Shown here piece by piece: positions 1,783-12,255 of a DNA stretch of 25,297 bases. The first letter of the stretch is position 1, and each line of letters opens with the position of its first letter. Under the pieces are notes generated by a model, which was not told the DNA's origin, made no database searches, and was given only the letters and a program-made list of their open reading frames with translations. Source of the stretch: a virus; IMG/VR virus record IMGVR_UViG_3300035180_000594, positions 1 through 25,297 of that record; one strand, given 5' to 3'. The translations under genes and the position numbers were made by a program.

Positions 1783-2406
1783 TCAGAACCGAATACCGGC
1801 CCGGATGAACCCAGCCCATGTAGTGCGACCACCCGCTACCAGGGGTTCTCGCACTTGGTAGAGGTCGGCTCCCATGCGGAGGAACCCGGCGTCCCTCTCG
1901 ATCCAGGCGCCGAAGGTCCTGTCGGCTGGGTTCCAGCTTGGCCCCGCCGCCCACTTCAGGACCCGCTGTGTCGCCGCCGCCTCAACAGGGATGTCCACCC
2001 CGCCCACGACCTGCCCATCGGGGCTGGAGGCCACCACGCGGCGGGAATCGTCGGGCATCCGAACAAGGGTCAAGTCCACCCGAACCGGGGAGCACGGGGG
2101 ACGGGCAGGTGCGCTTGCACTATCGGAAGCACCGGATACAGAGGGGAGCGAAAGCACCGGGCTTGCGTGGGGCTGGACGGTCACCTGGACGATGCGCTCC
2201 ACCTTCGCGCCCTTGGGGACCTGCTGAGCCGGCTTCGCGTCCTCCTGCGGCTTGCGCTCCAGCACCAGGCTCCCGTCCTGCTGACGCATCGGCGGGGCAT
2301 AGGTTTCCGGCTTCGGTGTCTTCGGCCTCCACAGCATCCACCCTGTCCCTAGCCCGGCCCCGAAGATCAGAGCGCAGGCGGCAAGTCCTTTCTGAGCGGC
2401 TCTCAC
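1783..2406 (-). CDS. Single-pass membrane protein of the lysis region, unknown function
   Basis: I start this 207-residue protein at GTG 2406, which overlaps the holin-candidate stop codon as GTGA; a longer frame exists but would lie inside the holin gene. Residues 7-26 (GLAACALIFGAGLGTGWMLW) are one hydrophobic segment, as a membrane anchor or uncleaved signal. Then comes a Pro-rich charged linker (about 27-100) and a beta-rich C-terminal part that ends in GFIRAGIRF, whose final Phe recalls outer-membrane strands. Its place right after the holin candidate is where inner-membrane spanins often sit, but it is not a coiled coil and I see no lipobox-bearing partner nested inside. I do not assign a function. 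Confidence 0.75.
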   Translation of the reverse strand: MRAAQKGLAACALIFGAGLGTGWMLWRPKTPKPETYAPPMRQQDGSLVLERKPQEDAKPAQQVPKGAKVERIVQVTVQPHASPVLSLPSVSGASDSASAPARPPCSPVRVDLTLVRMPDDSRRVVASSPDGQVVGGVDIPVEAAATQRVLKWAAGPSWNPADRTFGAWIERDAGFLRMGADLYQVREPLVAGGRTTWAGFIRAGIRF

Positions 2407-2675
2407 GGCTGGTCCCCCTTCGGCGGTTCCGGTGCATTGGAACCTTTCTTGAATAGGCCGCCGGTTATGGCGGTGAGGAAAGCGCTGAAGGCCAACACCA
2501 GGTTGCCGTCCCGTGGCCCCGTGTAGAACCACCACGTCAGCCAACACGCGGCGGCGATGAGCCCCAGGCCATAGGCTGCCAGGTTGACCTCTAGCGTGTG
2601 GTCCTGACTGTCGAAGGCGCGCCCAAGGCCCAGGCGCGGCCTCAACTTCTCCAGGAGATCAGCCAGACACGTCAT
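2403..2675 (-). CDS. Putative holin, two transmembrane helices
   Basis: This 90-residue protein has a charged N-terminus (about 1-30), a first hydrophobic segment LAAYGLGLIAAACWLTWWFY (about 32-51), a short polar turn, a second segment NLVLAFSAFLTAITGGLF (about 58-75) and a short charged tail KKGSNAPEPPKGDQ. Size, two helices and a polar tail fit class II/III holins, which open the inner membrane at the end of infection so that the endolysin can reach peptidoglycan. It overlaps by 4 bases (ATGA) with the preceding Tlde1-like enzyme gene and by 4 bases (GTGA) with the next gene, a tight lysis-cassette arrangement. The family is not recognised by a signature motif; the call rests on topology and position. 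Confidence 0.7.
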   Translation of the reverse strand: MTCLADLLEKLRPRLGLGRAFDSQDHTLEVNLAAYGLGLIAAACWLTWWFYTGPRDGNLVLAFSAFLTAITGGLFKKGSNAPEPPKGDQP

Positions 2676-3052
2676 GGCGTCACCGTCAGTGTGTCATCGG
2701 GGCCGGGTGTGAGGTCGTGGATCTTCAAACGCCCGGCGAAAGGAACCACGCAACACCCCTTGGACTCCTGGCCTCGGCGGGCGGGGTCCATGCTTGGCCC
2801 GTGGATGAAGAAGTCGTCCCGCCCGAAGGTCTCCCCGGCGATCTGGGTAAGGGGCGCCACCATCCGGCCCAGGTGGGGATGGTCCTGCCAGGGGCCGATG
2901 CGGTAGATACCTTGCGGTAGCGGTCCCACGTCGCGGACATGCTGCATGGCGGGGTTGCACTTGCCCTCCCCGTTCCCAGCCCATCCCAGGGCAACGTGTG
3001 CGCCGTCATCCCTGGTCACTAGGCCGGTGGACTGGCTGAAGTTCAGGTTCAT
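2672..3052 (-). CDS. Tlde1/DUF2778-type L,D-transpeptidase-like peptidoglycan enzyme, candidate endolysin
   Basis: The 126 residues follow the DUF2778/Tlde1 layout: an N-terminal strand pair, GLVTRDDG, then GEGKCNPAMQ, VGPLPQGIYRIG (about 42-53), FGRDDFFIHG with H84, and ESKGCCVV with C100. The spaced His and SxGC are the catalytic signature of this YkuD-related fold. Tlde1 proteins known from type VI secretion cut or exchange bonds in peptidoglycan tetrapeptides. There is no signal peptide, so the protein would stay in the cytoplasm until a holin acts. It begins with a strong GGAGG ribosome-binding site and an ATGA overlap, and sits directly upstream of the holin candidate. Endolysin is the simplest role, though the permuted NlpC/P60 enzyme nearby competes for it. 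Confidence 0.8.
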   Translation of the reverse strand: MNLNFSQSTGLVTRDDGAHVALGWAGNGEGKCNPAMQHVRDVGPLPQGIYRIGPWQDHPHLGRMVAPLTQIAGETFGRDDFFIHGPSMDPARRGQESKGCCVVPFAGRLKIHDLTPGPDDTLTVTP

Positions 3053-3471
3053 CGGCCACCTCCAAATTTCAGTGGGCAGTTCTCGACATGGTGTTGGATT
3101 TCCGTGCGTAGTTCGTTCCTGGTGTCCCGCAGGTCATCCTTGGTCGCATACTCGCGGGCCATCGTGGTGTCCAGTTTGGCCACAGTGGTGCTGAGGGTGG
3201 CGATGGCCGTGTTCAGGGAGTCGATGGACTGGCGGAACTGGCCGGTCACACGCTCTAGGGCGCGGCTGAAACTGTCTCGCGCTTCTTTCAATGCGGCTTC
3301 ATGGTCCAGCCTATTCTGGTTGACCGCCTTCCACAGCTTGTCCTTTGAGGTGACCTCCCGCCAAACGAAGGCAGCGAGGGCCGCCCCCAGGATAGCCACC
3401 AGTCCCCGCATCGCATAGGTTTCAAAGTCTGCGCCCATGTGTGCCCTCGGTGCCTTCGTGACGTGTTGCAT
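3049..3471 (-). CDS. Membrane-anchored coiled-coil protein of the lysis region
   Basis: I use the ATG at 3471 (140 residues), which has GGAGG five bases upstream; a second ATG at 3438 with GAGGG is nearly as good, and an earlier GTG at 3528 would overlap the preceding gene without a clear ribosome-binding site. After a short lead, MRGLVAILGAALAAFVW (about 21-37) is one transmembrane segment. It is followed by a long amphipathic helix (about 45-125) with heptad-like Leu/Ile/Val spacing, including SIDSLNTAIATLSTTVAKLD. The tail is HHVENCPLKFGGG. A single anchor plus a long coiled coil resembles an inner-membrane spanin or a pinholin-type accessory, but no pairing outer-membrane lipoprotein is visible. 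The function is open. Confidence 0.75.
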   Translation of the reverse strand: MQHVTKAPRAHMGADFETYAMRGLVAILGAALAAFVWREVTSKDKLWKAVNQNRLDHEAALKEARDSFSRALERVTGQFRQSIDSLNTAIATLSTTVAKLDTTMAREYATKDDLRDTRNELRTEIQHHVENCPLKFGGGR

Positions 3472-3511: not shown

Positions 3512-3970
3512 CTATTCGCCTTCTCCACAATGAGGGCAACGGCCTCGCTCCTGGCTGGTGCCGCCTCCCCCCAGGGCCTCGATCAACCCTTGCGGCGTCC
3601 ACCCCCGTGCCTCGTGGTCCAGGCCAAGAATCAGGGCGGCGAACTCGGCACACTCCCAGCCCGCATGATCCCCATGCTCTCCTAGGCCCGCCCGGATAGC
3701 GTCCTTGACGGAGTAGTGGTCCCCGAGGTGACGAAGGGCCGTGGGCACGTCCACGGTTCGCCCGGTGGGGAAGACGGTGGGGCCGTCCTCCATGCGGTTG
3801 CGGAGGGCGTGGCAGGACACACCGCCGATGGCACGAGCCTCCAGGACCAATGGCTCGCCCTCTACCACCCAGAGCACTCCGCAGTGGTCCCAGGCGCTGC
3901 GGGTCCACCAGCGAATGATGGCGGCTATGGGGCCACGCCCTCGGAACATGACGAGATCGCCGGTCTGCAT
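3512..3970 (-). CDS. Permuted NlpC/P60-type (YiiX/YebB-like) cysteine hydrolase
   Basis: This 152-residue protein starts MQTGDLVMFRGRG, then has DHCGVLW with H29, an acidic LVLEAR (E44), and GWECAEFAALIL with C107. The order His, then Glu, then Cys is that of circularly permuted NlpC/P60 (papain-fold) enzymes, the reverse of the normal Cys-His order. Members act on peptide or amide bonds, and phage copies are often taken as peptidoglycan hydrolases. The C-terminus holds a CxxC pair (CPHCGEGE) that could bind a metal. Its ATG directly follows the stop codon of the preceding gene, with GGGGG as ribosome-binding site. It could be an endolysin or a virion-associated enzyme. Family assignment is fairly sure, substrate is not. 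Confidence 0.75.
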   Translation of the reverse strand: MQTGDLVMFRGRGPIAAIIRWWTRSAWDHCGVLWVVEGEPLVLEARAIGGVSCHALRNRMEDGPTVFPTGRTVDVPTALRHLGDHYSVKDAIRAGLGEHGDHAGWECAEFAALILGLDHEARGWTPQGLIEALGGGGTSQERGRCPHCGEGE

Positions 3971-4441: not shown

Positions 4442-4840
4442 CTAAGATAGGATTTTGACGTTGTGAGACACCACGCCCAGCGTGGTGTAAGTGTGGACGC
4501 GGTTGATGGTGATCTTTACGACAGGCCCGTAAACGTCGGCCCGTGCGGACTCTACAACTAGGCCGTTCGTTAGAACATCGCCGTGGACCAAGTGCTGTAG
4601 TTCTTGCCAGCGACCATCGCTGAGCAGGAATTGGTGATTAGCGGCGAACCTACCCGAGCGCCCATTGGAGAGCACAAGCAGCCATCGGTGGTTTGTGCTC
4701 ATGGATGTGTGTGTGACTTCCTCCACACATTCGCATCCAGCGGCTTCGTCCCAGGCCACAACACGGTCGCCAATGCGGATAGCACCCGCAGGCTTCTCGG
4801 TGCCATCGGCCATGAGCAAAGGCACGTCAGGCGCAGGGCA
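4442..4840 (-). other. Hint (hedgehog/intein) domain at the fibre C-terminus
   Basis: The last 132 residues form a full-length Hint module. Block A is CPAPDVPLLMADGTEKPAGA with the nucleophile Cys1002, followed by IRIGDRVVAWD. Block B is GRFAANHQFLLSDG with His1070; the usual Thr three residues before this His is Ala here. Then comes LVHGDVLTNG, and the end is VVKITINRVHTYTTLGVVSHN with His1127-Asn1128. After Asn there are only five residues (VKILS) and no Cys, Ser or Thr at the +1 position. Protein splicing is therefore not expected, but N-S acyl shift and cleavage before Cys1002 are possible. It resembles bacterial intein-like and hedgehog-type modules more than a splicing intein. Confidence 0.85.
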
Positions 4841-7800
4841 GTTACCGCCGCCGCCCGTTCCGCCGCCCGTTCCGCCGCCCGCGGCACCCGTGATACCTGA
4901 CGGCCAAGACGTGCCGTTGTCCGTGAGCGCGGTGCCAGCAGTCCAACCGGACGCCGAGTAGAAGCAGTGGGTGTCGCTCGATCCCGACGCGCCGTAGAGC
5001 GTGACCTTGCACGCCGGGACTCCTGACAGAAGCGCCTCAGCGATAACCTGTGTGGCATAGGACGCGTTCCCAGCATCCGAATCACTCGTCGGGTTGTAGT
5101 AAATGCGGTCCCCAAGCGGGCAGTAGTAGACGCCATGTGTGGTCAGCGCGGCCGTTGTGCCCGCGGCAGACTGGCTGAACAACTCGATCTTGGCATAGGA
5201 GAGTCCATCCAGATTGTCCGTGTATGAACTCGGCGCCAGCTTGAGATCCAGGCGACCTGTGTAGGGGCTAGCCGTCTGGTAGAGCGTTGGAGTCACTGTG
5301 AGCCGCGAGATGTTGGGGCGTCCGCCATTGGTGCCAGGGTCGTTACTGCCCCGATAGAAGCACCGGAAGGACGTGCCGGTCTGCCCATTGTCGCCGATGG
5401 CGCTCATGGCACGGGCAGTGAGTCCAGACAACTGGTAGCCCATGAGGTTGACACCATAACCAAGCTCTACTTGCGCGGTGAATGTTGCGCCGCCAAGCAA
5501 GGTCGAAGTAAACCCTCCTGCGCTGATCCTGAATCCGATGGGTGGCGTGGTGGCCGTGCCCGGCGTGTATCCGCTCGCGTCCGAGCCGCTCCGCATGTCC
5601 AGCGAGTAGAGCAGCGGCACCCGCGCCACCAGGGCCTGGAGCGTGCCGTCCACGATCATTGAGGCGTCGGCCATGCGGCGAGCATAGAGGTTGTCAAGGC
5701 GGCACCCAGGAGCGGACGAGTCACAATAGAACTCAATAAACGCTGCCTGGGGGGGAATCGTTACCGTAAATGAAACTTTCTGGTAGGTTGTATTTGTGAA
5801 TGAAACACCAACCCAGTTCGCATAGCTCCAGTCTGCATTGGATATTCTGGAATAAAAAGCCCCGGTTCCAGAATCTACGCAAGCCATAGCCTCTGCGTAG
5901 AATTGATCTCCAGGATTGCAGGGGATACGGGCAGTATAGAACCCTGGTCCGCGCCGGTAGGTGCCGGAGTAAGGCCGATCCGAAGAGAGCCCAGCAGCCT
6001 CATAACTCCCTGCCGGAGGGTTAGGCATCTCGCTATTGCCGTTCGGGATCAGGTTGTCGAAGTTTGCGACCGACAACTGGTTCGCAAACAACTGCCCGAA
6101 TAGCCCCGTTGTCGCCACCAGCACATCGGTCCACGCCGTACCTGCCGCGTTGACCTGCACCGTGCGGGCGTCCGTGGTGATCGCATAGTAACCAGCGGGA
6201 TAGCTCGCGTTCGGGAGCGCGGGCTTCGACGCGTAGGCCCACGCGACTTGATGCGGCTGTGAAGCGAGTTGAGCGGCGTTTGCCTTGTTCGTGGCATCCG
6301 TCGCCGCCGTGCTGATAGCATTCTGCGCCGTGCCCACCGCGATGGCATTCCGCAGATCGGCGGCTGCATTCTTCACGGCGGTCCACTTCGGGTTCCAGAG
6401 GGCCACGCGATTACCGGTGCCGAGCGATGTGGTTCCGCCTAGGGAGTTCCAGGCCGTGGGGCTGGTGAGCGTGGACAGGTAGGACATCAGCGCGGAATAG
6501 GCCGTGTCATAGGTGGAGTGGTTCGCGCCGTAGGCGTTGGCCTTCGCCACGAGGTCCGCGTTCTCACCCGTGACCGCGTTGTAGTCGATGATGATCTGCG
6601 GCTTCTCACCCGTGGTCAGGGTGTCGGGATCGTTGATCGTGTTGACGCCGGACTGGGCATTGGTTGCCAATCCACGAAGCACCGCTCCCTGCGCTGGCAT
6701 GGGACTGAGTGTGGCGATCCCATTGGTGACGGTGTAATCGGTGACAGTGACTGCGGCTGTGGTGGTGGGAATGCGGGAGGTCGCAAGGGTGCCAGCCTCA
6801 ACCTGAGTCATCCCAGCATAGATATACGACGCACCGTCGCCGGTGTAAGCCTGCACAGATGTTCCGTCGGAGGTTCCGATACCCGCGTTTATTGTGGTGG
6901 AGGACGCCGTCACTGTTTTGGTACAGAGCCACCAGCCACTACCAAGTGAAGTCATGGTTGGACTGCCAGATCCAGAGGCTACGCCATTGATTAAATCGTA
7001 GAACGCACTGGTGGTGTCAGTCGTGCTCCAGACCCATGCCTGAGCCCATGTTCTGGTCCCCGCTTTCGCCAAGAATGAAAGCGTGTATTGTGAGCCACTG
7101 ACGATACCGCCCACAGATTGCCATACCTTGTGTCCCCCACCGCCGTTTGTGCCGGTCCCCTCAACGATTTTGTTTCCGGTGTTACCGCCATCGGGCATCG
7201 TAATCTGGTTTGCGGTCGCGGTGCAGCCGTCTTGGGACCATGTGGCAGTGAAATTATTCGATTGACGGACCATATTCGTCCGCGCAGTCGCGTAGAGCGT
7301 CTGCGTGCCCTGCCAGTCCGTCTTAGTCACGGTAGGGCCAACATAGAGAAACTGACTGGTGGTGCCGTCGCCTACCGCCACGGGAATCAGTGCGGTGTTT
7401 CCAGTGGACTGTGCTGCGTCCACTGCGGCCTTCGTTCCAAGCACAACGGTATCAGGATCTAGTTGGACTGTTCCGTCAAGAGATCGCCAACTTGACTCAT
7501 TGCCGCTGTGATACACAGCCTGCACGGAGGCTTTGATATTGGCAATCGTAGTTGCAGTAGTGATACTTTTCACATAGCGATAATTCGTCAGTGTATTCGC
7601 TACAATCGCTCCCGGATCTATTTCAATAGGGGCAGTGATGTAGGATGAAACATCATTTGGGTCCGTGCCAGTATAGACTACTATCCTGAATATCCTCAGC
7701 GCGGCGGGGTAGGGCTCTGTGTGAGTCCAATTGAAATCCAGCCATTTGGGGCTGAGAAGTGTTGGACTTCCGCCCGCGCCAGGACCACCACTGGGGCCAA

Positions 7801-7843
7801 CACCGCCGCCGGCATCATTATCTGTTGGGTATGAGATAAGCAT
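4442..7843 (-). CDS. Large tail fibre / tail-tip protein with C-terminal Hint autoprocessing domain
   Basis: This is a modular protein of 1133 residues. After a Gly-rich leader (10-28) comes an FN3-like beta domain (about 33-130) like the repeats of lambda gpJ. A jelly-roll, carbohydrate-binding-like module follows at about 187-360, starting ARTNMVRQSNNFTATW. A helical stalk (about 405-530) resembles the DKLTPSEK stalks of J-type proteins. A second jelly-roll module lies at about 597-730 (NLIPNGNSEMPNPP), then a beta-rich region to about 980, a Gly-rich linker and a Hint domain from Cys1002 to the end. It probably binds the host receptor, taking the place of the C-terminal half of lambda gpJ, since the preceding J-type gene is short. 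AGGGG serves as ribosome-binding site. Fibre identity is inference from domains and position; the Hint domain is seen directly. Confidence 0.85.
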   Translation of the reverse strand: MLISYPTDNDAGGGVGPSGGPGAGGSPTLLSPKWLDFNWTHTEPYPAALRIFRIVVYTGTDPNDVSSYITAPIEIDPGAIVANTLTNYRYVKSITTATTIANIKASVQAVYHSGNESSWRSLDGTVQLDPDTVVLGTKAAVDAAQSTGNTALIPVAVGDGTTSQFLYVGPTVTKTDWQGTQTLYATARTNMVRQSNNFTATWSQDGCTATANQITMPDGGNTGNKIVEGTGTNGGGGHKVWQSVGGIVSGSQYTLSFLAKAGTRTWAQAWVWSTTDTTSAFYDLINGVASGSGSPTMTSLGSGWWLCTKTVTASSTTINAGIGTSDGTSVQAYTGDGASYIYAGMTQVEAGTLATSRIPTTTAAVTVTDYTVTNGIATLSPMPAQGAVLRGLATNAQSGVNTINDPDTLTTGEKPQIIIDYNAVTGENADLVAKANAYGANHSTYDTAYSALMSYLSTLTSPTAWNSLGGTTSLGTGNRVALWNPKWTAVKNAAADLRNAIAVGTAQNAISTAATDATNKANAAQLASQPHQVAWAYASKPALPNASYPAGYYAITTDARTVQVNAAGTAWTDVLVATTGLFGQLFANQLSVANFDNLIPNGNSEMPNPPAGSYEAAGLSSDRPYSGTYRRGPGFYTARIPCNPGDQFYAEAMACVDSGTGAFYSRISNADWSYANWVGVSFTNTTYQKVSFTVTIPPQAAFIEFYCDSSAPGCRLDNLYARRMADASMIVDGTLQALVARVPLLYSLDMRSGSDASGYTPGTATTPPIGFRISAGGFTSTLLGGATFTAQVELGYGVNLMGYQLSGLTARAMSAIGDNGQTGTSFRCFYRGSNDPGTNGGRPNISRLTVTPTLYQTASPYTGRLDLKLAPSSYTDNLDGLSYAKIELFSQSAAGTTAALTTHGVYYCPLGDRIYYNPTSDSDAGNASYATQVIAEALLSGVPACKVTLYGASGSSDTHCFYSASGWTAGTALTDNGTSWPSGITGAAGGGTGGGTGGGGNCPAPDVPLLMADGTEKPAGAIRIGDRVVAWDEAAGCECVEEVTHTSMSTNHRWLLVLSNGRSGRFAANHQFLLSDGRWQELQHLVHGDVLTNGLVVESARADVYGPVVKITINRVHTYTTLGVVSHNVKILS
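4848..4881 (-). repeat. 12-base tandem repeat coding the Gly-rich linker before the Hint domain
   Basis: The unit CCGCCGCCCGTT (plus strand) occurs 2.8 times in a row and encodes the GGGT repeats just ahead of Cys1002. Whole-unit gain or loss would change linker length by four residues without shifting frame. Confidence 0.75.
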
Positions 7844-10173: not shown

Positions 10174-10881
10174 CTAGACGATGGCGGCGGGTGCGAGAGC
10201 CCACATCCAAGGCGCAGTTCTTCCATCGCCATTACGAGTGCCAATTTCATCAGCTGCCAGCCCACCCAAGCCATTCGGAGTCCACGACTCGCTGCAGATA
10301 CCTAGTGATACGAGGGCTCCGCCAACACGAAGTTTTCCGTAGCCCAGCCCGATAGGATTTCCCTGCCCGATTGTTAGATGTGGGGATGAAAAGGCAAAGG
10401 TCGGCTTATCCGCTGGGCCTTTGTCGTTGCTTCCTGCGTCAACGCTTTGGTTTCCCGCTAAGATCTGGGCCACACCCCCGAGAGCCATCGCCATTCCCAT
10501 ATTGATAGCCATAGCAGAAAGCCAGTTGTTCGCCGCCGCCTGATACCAGTAAGCTCCTGACCCACCTGTGAAGTAGACAAGAGCTATAAGCGCGACGCCC
10601 ATAAGGATCTGTCCGAAAATATTCTTTGCGCCTACGACACATGGAACAATCCGGATAGTCTCTCCACCGTGGGGCAGGAAAAGTTGCTCTTCTCCAAGAG
10701 ATTCTGCCCCGATGCGAATTCTGTATCCGTATTCATAATTGATCATTGCTTCTTTAAAGCCTTCAAGCTGGCAACTTAGAGCTCTAATTGCTTCCTGTGG
10801 GGAGCTCACAGCCAAGCGAAAACTTGCGCCGAACTTTGCGCGAAGGTGGCCATACAGTCTGATCTCAGTGGTTTCAGTCAT
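10174..10881 (-). CDS. I: Tail assembly protein I-like
   Basis: I start this 235-residue protein at ATG 10881, where it overlaps the K-like stop codon by 8 bases. A longer in-frame extension to 11082 exists but lies inside the K gene and has no family resemblance. The N-terminus MTETTEIRLYGHLRAKFGASFRLAV and the following SPQEAIRALSCQLEGFK match the lambda gpI family, whose N-terminus has a beta-grasp fold. A Gly/Ala-rich hydrophobic middle follows (about 88-145). In lambda, gpI is needed for tail-tip assembly but is not found in the finished virion. Gene order L-K-I-J supports the call. Confidence 0.88.
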   Translation of the reverse strand: MTETTEIRLYGHLRAKFGASFRLAVSSPQEAIRALSCQLEGFKEAMINYEYGYRIRIGAESLGEEQLFLPHGGETIRIVPCVVGAKNIFGQILMGVALIALVYFTGGSGAYWYQAAANNWLSAMAINMGMAMALGGVAQILAGNQSVDAGSNDKGPADKPTFAFSSPHLTIGQGNPIGLGYGKLRVGGALVSLGICSESWTPNGLGGLAADEIGTRNGDGRTAPWMWALAPAAIV

Positions 10882-11566
10882 GACGCACCGCCATCCTGGT
10901 CCTTCCCTGCCAGTGTCCATCATACTCGTCAATGCGAGAAAGACGGTTTGGCAGGTGATGAAGTATCCTACCATGCCCAACATAGATAGCGCAATGGCTA
11001 ATAGTTGGAGCCGCAACTTCCATGAGAAGCCCATCGCCCTCCCGCAGATCTTTGATGGGGATTTCGTAATAACCCGCCGCAAGAAGATTATCTAGATGAG
11101 GAGTTTCGCCGCGTTCCCAGAACTTATCACTGCGCAGAAAGTCTGGCAGTTCATGACCACTGGAAAGTGCATACCACTCTCGCGCAATTGACCAACAATC
11201 GTCCACGCCAAACACGAATTGCCGCCCCTCAATAGGCCGCCCAACTGGATCTATGCGGCTCCACGATTGGTTTGCATCAGTGACTACCCACCACGGCACA
11301 CCTGTCGCATTGCAACTTTTCACATCAGTGACGCCGGGGCTGACGTCACCACCGACATGGCTATGGATATACCCAATCAGTCTACCATCGTCCTGCGCGG
11401 CCACCAAACTATCAGGGCACAGATCAAGTTCATCTTCTACAGTTGAAAGATTCTTACATCTACGATACTCTGCGACGCCTTTGATATCAATGACGACGCC
11501 GACAGATTCCATGGGGGACATCTCCAGGGCGTGGATGTGAGCTTTTGATAGAAGTTCTGGTGTCAT
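10874..11566 (-). CDS. K: Tail-tip protein K-like: JAMM peptidase plus NlpC/P60 domains
   Basis: The chosen ATG (11566) overlaps the L-like stop as ATGA and gives MTPELLSKAHIHALEMSP, the usual start of this family; an upstream in-frame ATG at 11635 would overlap L by 73 bases. The 230-residue protein has an N-terminal JAMM/MPN metalloprotease domain with E20, H68-S-H70, S76 and D81 (IHSHVGGDVSPGVTD). The C-terminal NlpC/P60 domain has Cys124 (GVDDCWSIAREWY) and His191 (ISHCAIYVGHG). In lambda gpK the same pair acts in tail-tip maturation and possibly peptidoglycan passage. All catalytic residues appear intact. Confidence 0.92.
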   Translation of the reverse strand: MTPELLSKAHIHALEMSPMESVGVVIDIKGVAEYRRCKNLSTVEDELDLCPDSLVAAQDDGRLIGYIHSHVGGDVSPGVTDVKSCNATGVPWWVVTDANQSWSRIDPVGRPIEGRQFVFGVDDCWSIAREWYALSSGHELPDFLRSDKFWERGETPHLDNLLAAGYYEIPIKDLREGDGLLMEVAAPTISHCAIYVGHGRILHHLPNRLSRIDEYDGHWQGRTRMAVRHD

Positions 11567-12255
11567 CTCACTAACCCAGCGCCTGGAAATCCACCATAAG
11601 GAAGCGGCGTAGTCGGTCCGAAGTGCTGTAGACACCCGCCGTCGCCAGTTGCGTCGTTCAGAGTTTTATTACAAGTGGCCAGAGCTCCAGCATACCCGCA
11701 CTCATATCCTTTGTAAACCCAGGGACAGATAGTTGCCTGGATAACCCTGCGCGGAAGTTTGAGACCCTGCGCGTCCATCTTGCTGGCAAGCTCAAATGAG
11801 ATGAAATCCTTTGTTTCAAGGGCCTTGCGTTCTATGACGAATACGTCGTCAGGCAAGTAGGCATTAGGATTAGGGCTTGAACCTGTGGGGAGGAACTTGG
11901 CGAGCGTCCTCTTTCTTATGAGCGTCGCCCCTACCAAATCGTCGTAGTCTCGGATCATTAGCCCAATCAGGCCGTCAACAGCCGCAACTGTGATCTTTGG
12001 TCTGGGCAAGGTGCCCTTTCCGGTTATTTCAAATCCCTCTGCCTTGATCGGGAATGCCTGATAGGTGTTGTTCTGCCAGACGATGTTGGCCCACACATCG
12101 TTCGTTCCGGCGTGGAAATAAGTCAGACCCCCGCCGATGCTAGGATCACTAGCGTCGAGAACGAATAGTTCAATAATAGCGCCGGGATCAAGACTCGCTA
12201 TTTCCCGGCGCGGCGTGGGGTCAACATACCCTGGATCTAAGCGAGAAAGAGTCAC
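11563..12255 (-). CDS. L: Minor tail protein L-like, probable [4Fe-4S] protein
   Basis: The 230 residues match the lambda gpL family. The N-terminal part has SLDPGAIIELFVLDAS and the central FEITGKGTLPRPKITV, and the C-terminal part carries four cysteines, C177, C186, C195 and C208, in the pattern ICPWVYKGYECGY, ATCNKTL and GGCLQHFG. Lambda gpL binds a [4Fe-4S] cluster through four cysteines in this region, so the same is likely here (family knowledge). It ends in YGGFPG, also typical. The start is GTG and overlaps the M-like stop by 4 bases. It links the tape-measure end of the tube to the tip complex. Confidence 0.93.
   Translation of the reverse strand: MTLSRLDPGYVDPTPRREIASLDPGAIIELFVLDASDPSIGGGLTYFHAGTNDVWANIVWQNNTYQAFPIKAEGFEITGKGTLPRPKITVAAVDGLIGLMIRDYDDLVGATLIRKRTLAKFLPTGSSPNPNAYLPDDVFVIERKALETKDFISFELASKMDAQGLKLPRRVIQATICPWVYKGYECGYAGALATCNKTLNDATGDGGCLQHFGPTTPLPYGGFPGAGLVR

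Follow-up and report, generated by a model that had tools for sequence, protein, structure and literature searches.

The window, i.e. the whole stretch of 25,297 nucleotides of viral DNA analyzed here, carries on its minus strand a cassette of four genes, coding in this order for proteins of 129 aa (3438-3049), 126 aa (3052-2672), 90 aa (2675-2403) and 207 aa (2406-1783). Overlaps of 4 bases are found throughout the cassette, and all four genes are retained across the close clade. The second gene, which has an ATG start and a translation of 126 aa, is the subject of this study. Its product matches the Pfam family PF10908 (Tlde1_dom, DUF2778) with 34.1 bits for a cut-off of 30.1 (E 4.2e-8; 32.1 bits in the record-wide search), so that the profile search against DUF2778 proposed in the first-pass annotation of this DNA turned out positive. 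It also matches phrog_24118 (E 6.4e-21), a family listed in PHROG as of unknown function. At E≤1, the window protein had no match to PF03734 (YkuD); a microvirus relative, presented below, scored 25.2 versus 23.4 bits. The gene is more than a chance reading frame, since its dN/dS is between 0.05 and 0.21 in comparisons with six close relatives, and since relatives of its product are encoded at 67 viral loci. Here and below, gene neighbourhoods come from our own simple gene caller rather than a published one.

The first-pass annotation had described this gene well: a DUF2778 layout with His84 and Cys100, both of which are placed as it said; no signal peptide, in agreement with our inspection of the N-terminus (MNLNFSQSTGLVTRDDG); 4-base overlaps with both neighbours, found at 2672-2675 and 3049-3052 (reading TCAT on the plus and ATGA on the minus strand); a position directly before a holin candidate, the next gene downstream indeed coding for 90 aa with two hydrophobic segments; and an NlpC/P60-like gene some 460 bases upstream, which ends at 3512, 459 bases away.

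The gene upstream in the cassette (3049-3438, minus strand) codes for 129 aa with an N-terminal membrane helix and a coiled coil. It is 82-92% identical across the clade and has weak matches to Rz-like spanins (E 0.006-0.04); the protein may be i-spanin-like or holin-like. A 159-aa ORF starting at 3528 was considered for this upstream partner and rejected, the gene call being best read as the 129-aa gene starting at 3438. Downstream, the 90-aa holin candidate (2403-2675, minus strand) has no match to a named family in Pfam or PHROG. The last gene (1783-2406, minus strand) encodes a spanin candidate of 207 aa, in which the alignment and a low-confidence model suggest an N-terminal membrane helix, then a periplasmic linker, then a beta segment of four strands at the C-terminus, with Phe as last residue. 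This Phe is invariant in the 13 family members, like an outer-membrane beta signal. The model has a pLDDT of 65 overall and of about 87 at the C-terminal end, with a disordered linker, and no fold match at E≤0.001. No match to the 207-aa protein was found in 50,697 phage records, and the same holds for the 90-aa-type protein of contig L157 (see below). Genes related to that of the 207-aa protein are in all cases neighbours of a murein enzyme, and the predicted architecture could be that of a spanin made of one protein, anchored in the outer membrane by its beta segment. The locus thus has the layout of a late lysis cassette, with candidate holin and spanins around an enzyme devoid of export signal.

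Fold and catalytic residues of the DUF2778 enzyme

An AlphaFold2 model of the 126-aa protein, computed with 44 aligned phage relatives as input, had a pLDDT of 96.7 and a pTM of 0.90. Its top Foldseek match in the PDB was Tlde1a (E 1.8e-4), a type VI secretion system (T6SS) effector of Salmonella, and VIA-align superposed the two (PDB 7uma) over 115 residues at 2.3 A, with a Z score of 12.8 and 23% identity. Next came Pgp2 (Z 12.6) and Bd1075 (11.8), which we take to be LD-carboxypeptidases, then Csd6 (11.6) and YkuD (11.6). Pgp2, Csd6 and Bd1075 share the fold (Z 11.6-12.6), but these cellular proteins are larger (268-316 residues) and have extra domains, whereas the phage protein consists of the 126-aa domain alone. 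Csd6 is named as an LD-carboxypeptidase in the Tlde1a paper (PMC9638812). Sequence searches of the PDB gave no match with P0001 as query, and only 4lpq (E 0.8) with the alignment as query.

The phage enzyme has in common with Tlde1a, besides the PF10908 domain, the layout H...[S/T]-x-G-C. H84, S97, G99 and C100 are invariant in 46/46 aligned relatives. The codon of the catalytic His84, in an IHG motif, lies at 2801-2803 (minus strand), and the residue corresponds to H121 of Tlde1a by motif spacing; that of the catalytic Cys100, in the SxGC motif, lies at 2753-2755 (minus strand) and corresponds to C131 by motif. FGR76-78, F81, I83, G85 and R108 never vary either among these 46 relatives. R78 is placed six residues before H84, as R115 is before H121 in Tlde1a (numbers from PMC9638812).

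Two residues of the known enzymes are mostly or always missing, which may be of importance. The second His of T6SS-effector Tlde1 proteins, in their (S/T)HGC motif (H129 in Tlde1a), is kept in 5 of the 46 phage relatives and is K98 in the window protein. The Arg found two residues after the catalytic Cys in L,D-transpeptidases of the YkuD type is present in none of the 46, where the position is I or V in 45 and E in one. This Arg was tied to transpeptidase activity in the DpaA paper (PMC8263019), and the H129A mutant of Tlde1a was described as keeping D-amino-acid exchange while losing crosslinking and part of the carboxypeptidase activity (PMC9638812). From this residue pattern we infer that the phage enzyme is probably a hydrolase rather than a transpeptidase. 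The loss of H129, which was placed by docking against the D-Ala4 carboxylate, would be compatible with accepting a cross-linked stem.

The activities described for YkuD-fold enzymes, i.e. LD-carboxypeptidase, LD-endopeptidase (LdtCd2, LdtCd3) and detachment of proteins (PMC12729407, PMC8263019), are compatible with the mechanism proposed below. DpaA (LdtF) resembles the 46 phage relatives in having no Arg at the second position after the Cys; it acts on Lpp-murein, and neither LD-endopeptidase nor LD-carboxypeptidase activity was seen for it, according to its report (PMC8263019).

Exchange of the enzyme at the cassette slot

Profile searches retrieved the 90-aa protein in 16 contigs, the 129-aa protein in 14 and the 207-aa protein in 20, making 23 distinct contigs overall. 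In the 16 contigs of the 90-aa family, the gene just upstream is DUF2778 in 13 cases, and in the 3 others (L126-L128) a Peptidase_M15_3 gene is found in its place: the slot holds a 168-aa protein of this family (30.3 versus 23.2 bits) and a 92-aa ORF, with the 129-aa gene again upstream. This ORF (L126:2720-2995) has an N-terminal signal-like segment and no Pfam match. At the DNA level, L126 shows 89.6% identity to the window between 3486 and 3045, a stretch that comprises the 129-aa gene and ends eight bases into DUF2778; homology breaks off after 3045, and resumes at 2639, inside the 90-aa gene.

In each of the 23 contigs, tblastn with five enzymes (these five only, with queries taken from the same loci) found exactly one of them in or beside the slot: DUF2778 in 14, M15_3 in 4, GH19 in 3, Amidase_2 in 1 and GH108 in 1. 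The enzyme sequence is identical, where covered, in the four M15_3 contigs, which therefore count as one lineage. The amidase, in L157, scores 70 bits to PF01510 (Amidase_2) and matches T7 lysozyme (E 1.2e-24); the GH19 proteins have PF00182 scores of 36.9-42.1 bits, along with matches to endolysins of solved structure (best E 5.5e-39); and the protein of L161 scores 111.7 bits to PF05838 (GH108). Gene order in L157 is that of the window, namely a TM/coiled-coil protein, the enzyme, a 95-aa protein related to the 90-aa one and a 205-aa protein related to the 207-aa one. The enzyme genes of L161 and L164 lie near or beside a gene of the 207-aa family, with the small genes in another order. These four families occupy the same position, beside relatives of the 90-aa and/or 207-aa proteins, but are unrelated to DUF2778 in sequence and catalytic chemistry; none of the slot enzymes had a blastp match to DUF2778 below E 0.1.

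The comparison of lysis loci in relatives, suggested at first pass, thus places ordinary endolysin families in the very slot of the DUF2778 gene. At this locus the DUF2778 enzyme is interchangeable with known endolysins, and it is this exchange that argues for a role in lysis. Contrary to what would be expected for a T6SS effector like Tlde1a, the phage gene is not near T6SS genes or a cognate immunity gene: it lies in a tail and lysis context, shares its slot with endolysins, and its 90-aa partner is also found beside other enzymes.

DUF2778 relatives in other phages and genomes

We compared the surroundings of DUF2778 genes with those of random genes from the same 47 representative loci (2000 draws). 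A small TM gene on the same strand lies within two genes of DUF2778 in 34 of the 47 loci (16.2 +/- 2.5 for random genes, maximum 25), and at least two small TM genes are near it in 22 (3.6 +/- 1.4, maximum 9). Of 49 records, four have a match to holin phrog_3427; it is the immediate neighbour of DUF2778 in three (L029, L034, L057) and lies more than 10 kb away in L063. Pfam searches with 69 chosen neighbours, mostly small membrane proteins plus the two adjacent glycosidases, returned GTA_holin_3TM three times, and Glyco_hydro_108, LysC (Rz1-like) and Phage_lysozyme once each. In L067 (5980-7815) the order is Rz-like gene, lipoprotein with a LAGC lipobox, DUF2778 and lysozyme; in L054 (6304-7884) it is Rz-like gene, 79-aa ORF, DUF2778 and GH108. 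Both may be two-enzyme lysis cassettes.

No small TM gene was found nearby in 13 of the 47 loci, among which are those of jumbo phages L080-L082 and four where head or tail genes surround DUF2778 (L044, L050, L063 and L073). DUF2778 lies among head genes in L063, L050 and L073, and the next gene in L063 encodes a histidine-phosphatase domain protein (His_Phos_1). The GH108 endolysin gene of Erwinia/Dickeya jumbo phages is elsewhere, separate from DUF2778, and in Burkholderia phage JC1 the DUF2778 gene is reported two genes before the terminase, with a separate lysis module (PMC9144972). The domain therefore appears to serve more than one purpose across phages, and our claim on lysis is limited to the clade of the window and its near relatives.

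Classical endolysin families were also searched in the 49 records, most of which are fragments. PF13539 and PF01510 were found in none and PF05838 in 5; PF00182 was found in none, in a search that gave no control match, and PF00959 in none, in a search that missed the lysozyme of L067 (22.7 bits by hmmscan). We give these absences little weight because of this missed lysozyme and of the fragmentary records.

Three relatives come from other settings. Citromicrobium phage vB_Cib_ssDNA_P1 (MG214764.1), an ssDNA microvirus of 4.36 kb, encodes a DUF2778 protein, gpB (L016:1358-1735; 46.4 bits), which is 40.5% identical to that of the window. The isolate paper reports no match for this ORF (PMC6030365). 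The gpB protein is a candidate lysis enzyme. The gpE protein of this microvirus (58 aa) has one hydrophobic stretch, and neither its DUF2778 nor its capsid protein had relatives in viral_contigs. L102, a 36-kb contig from a Geothrix MAG, has a 62% identical DUF2778 gene followed by genes for a two-TM protein, an Rz-like protein and terminase-like proteins, so that part of the group may have an Acidobacteriota host. Finally, Dyella solisilvae (L104:8001-8366) has a stand-alone chromosomal DUF2778 gene, with no evident phage or T6SS neighbours.

Proposed role in lysis and other readings

We think it quite likely that the DUF2778 enzyme is a cysteine LD-peptidase released by a holin and acting as endolysin. 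As it has no export signal, it would collect in the cytoplasm, until the putative holin, possibly the 90-aa protein, opens the inner membrane and lets it reach the periplasm. Once there, the enzyme would use Cys100, with His84 as activating residue, for an attack on the meso-DAP carbonyl at stem position 3 of murein, and water would free the acyl-enzyme, with the result that an L,D bond is cut: mDAP3-D-Ala4 within cross-links and/or mDAP3-mDAP3 cross-links. Spanin-type proteins may then finish the outer membrane. A pure carboxypeptidase would not open the sacculus. According to its report, Tlde1a is an LD-carboxypeptidase/exchange enzyme that forms a few 3-3 links (PMC9638812); since it mainly trims and exchanges D-Ala4, lysis by the phage enzyme alone would require a different substrate.

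This point leads to the best of the other explanations, unlikely in our opinion, in which the enzyme is accessory and helps another endolysin that went unrecognised, either by LD-carboxypeptidase or D-amino-acid exchange activity or by detaching outer-membrane proteins as DpaA does. The folds nearest to the model appear to be those of LD-carboxypeptidases, the YkuD fold can detach Lpp, as described for DpaA (PMC8263019), and a GH108 or lysozyme gene directly follows DUF2778 in L054 and L067. Against it, a single such enzyme is found per cassette in the clade of the window, as well as in the counterparts that carry M15_3, Amidase_2, GH19 or GH108. A sister record of 37,448 bases, G005, keeps the DUF2778 cassette; its ends overlap by about 1.2 kb at 92% identity, and we therefore read it as a complete genome of about 36 kb sampled from a mixed population. 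The 52 proteins scanned from it matched 37 Pfam families at E≤0.001; among the 25 of these that were listed, Tlde1_dom is present and no lysozyme, amidase or M15 is found. A scan of 20 proteins, chiefly from the left half, gave 13 families, with NLPC_P60 as the only murein-enzyme family; in the window this domain occurs in a JAB fusion beside tail genes. The G005 scans, within these bounds, thus point to no other murein hydrolase than the tail NlpC/P60.

The 152-aa protein encoded at 3512-3970 (minus strand) is a YiiX/NlpC-P60-like permuted papain-fold protein (NF007458, E 2.5e-5, under its cut-off; phrog_1128, E 4.5e-12). That this papain-fold enzyme, so close upstream of the cassette, would be the endolysin and DUF2778 do something else seems to us very improbable: by tblastn, which covered G005 whole and the fetched flanks of the other contigs, its gene is in only 4 of 11 contigs of the close clade (L002, L003, L020, L021) and not in G005, whereas DUF2778 is in all 11. 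It lies outside the conserved cassette, has no holin neighbour, sits among variable tail-fibre genes and travels with an exchangeable tail-fibre part. Since it is missing from most sister phages, it is not the general lysis enzyme. Further upstream, the large fibre-like protein (4442-7843, minus strand) has a C-terminal domain that starts with Cys, ends with HN and a short tail, and is presumably of Hint/intein type. The distribution of the YiiX/NlpC-P60-like gene speaks against the two-enzyme or exclusion system with NlpC/P60 envisaged in the first-pass annotation, while its suggestion that a DUF2778/Tlde1 protein is used as a holin-dependent lysis enzyme is favoured by M15_3 in the slot of sister phages, by Amidase_2, GH19 and GH108 in the wider P0005-linked cassettes, and by GTA_holin_3TM or Rz1/lysozyme neighbours elsewhere.

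Even less credit is given to a toxin-immunity or superinfection-exclusion pair formed by the DUF2778 and 90-aa proteins, on the model of Tlde1-Tldi1. Tlde1 does have an immunity partner (PMC9638812), and JC1 has, elsewhere than in its lysis module, a 93-aa gene that comes after DUF2778 (PMC9144972). The 90-aa protein, however, stays when M15_3 or Amidase_2 replaces DUF2778, which an immunity protein specific to DUF2778 would not do, and we rejected an immunity role for it on this ground. Least credible of all is a lysin carried in the virion and serving at entry: in L046, L058, L063, L065 and L073 the gene comes after head genes or after putative fibre genes of very large size, but in the clade of the window its translation is coupled to that of membrane-protein genes, and the tail genes of the phage already include a JAB + NlpC/P60 fusion (10874-11635, minus strand, by Pfam scan), probably a tail-tip murein peptidase used at entry.

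A holin-released DUF2778 endolysin could be the starting point of a broader scheme, which we put forward as a rather doubtful one. A whole group of phages of Gram-negative hosts would lyse with an LD-specific cysteine peptidase of L,D-transpeptidase fold as only endolysin; this LD-endopeptidase, opening D-Ala4-containing and 3-3 cross-links, would have arisen from a carboxypeptidase/exchange enzyme that lost both the transpeptidase Arg and the second His of Tlde1; a microvirus of 4.4 kb, Citromicrobium phage vB_Cib_ssDNA_P1, would share this chemistry; and a one-protein spanin of a new type, combining a helix in the inner membrane with a beta anchor of outer-membrane type, would disrupt the outer membrane.

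Glycosidases, amidases and classical endopeptidases make up, as far as is known, nearly all of the endolysins studied. In the accessible literature on DUF2778/Tlde1/YkuD-type phage enzymes, no report of a tested Tlde1-domain endolysin was found. PF10908 has already been counted once among phage lytic proteins, in the domain table of PhaLP, as one of the 10 proteins of its YkuD catalytic class (PMC8310338). Other mentions of YkuD in the phage lysin literature, as far as accessible, concern catalogue domains or large modular gut endolysins.

The phage studied here thus appears to burst its host with a small cell-wall enzyme of a type known chiefly from the weapons of bacteria. If this is true, a murein enzyme of L,D-transpeptidase fold in the endolysin slot would represent a new cutting chemistry for lysis, and one that would attack bonds on which beta-lactam-tolerant cells rely, such as 3-3 cross-links and murein-protein links. 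It would also give a function to phrog_24118, a widespread phage family now listed as unknown, and suggest one for the ORF of the Citromicrobium microvirus that was reported without a match.
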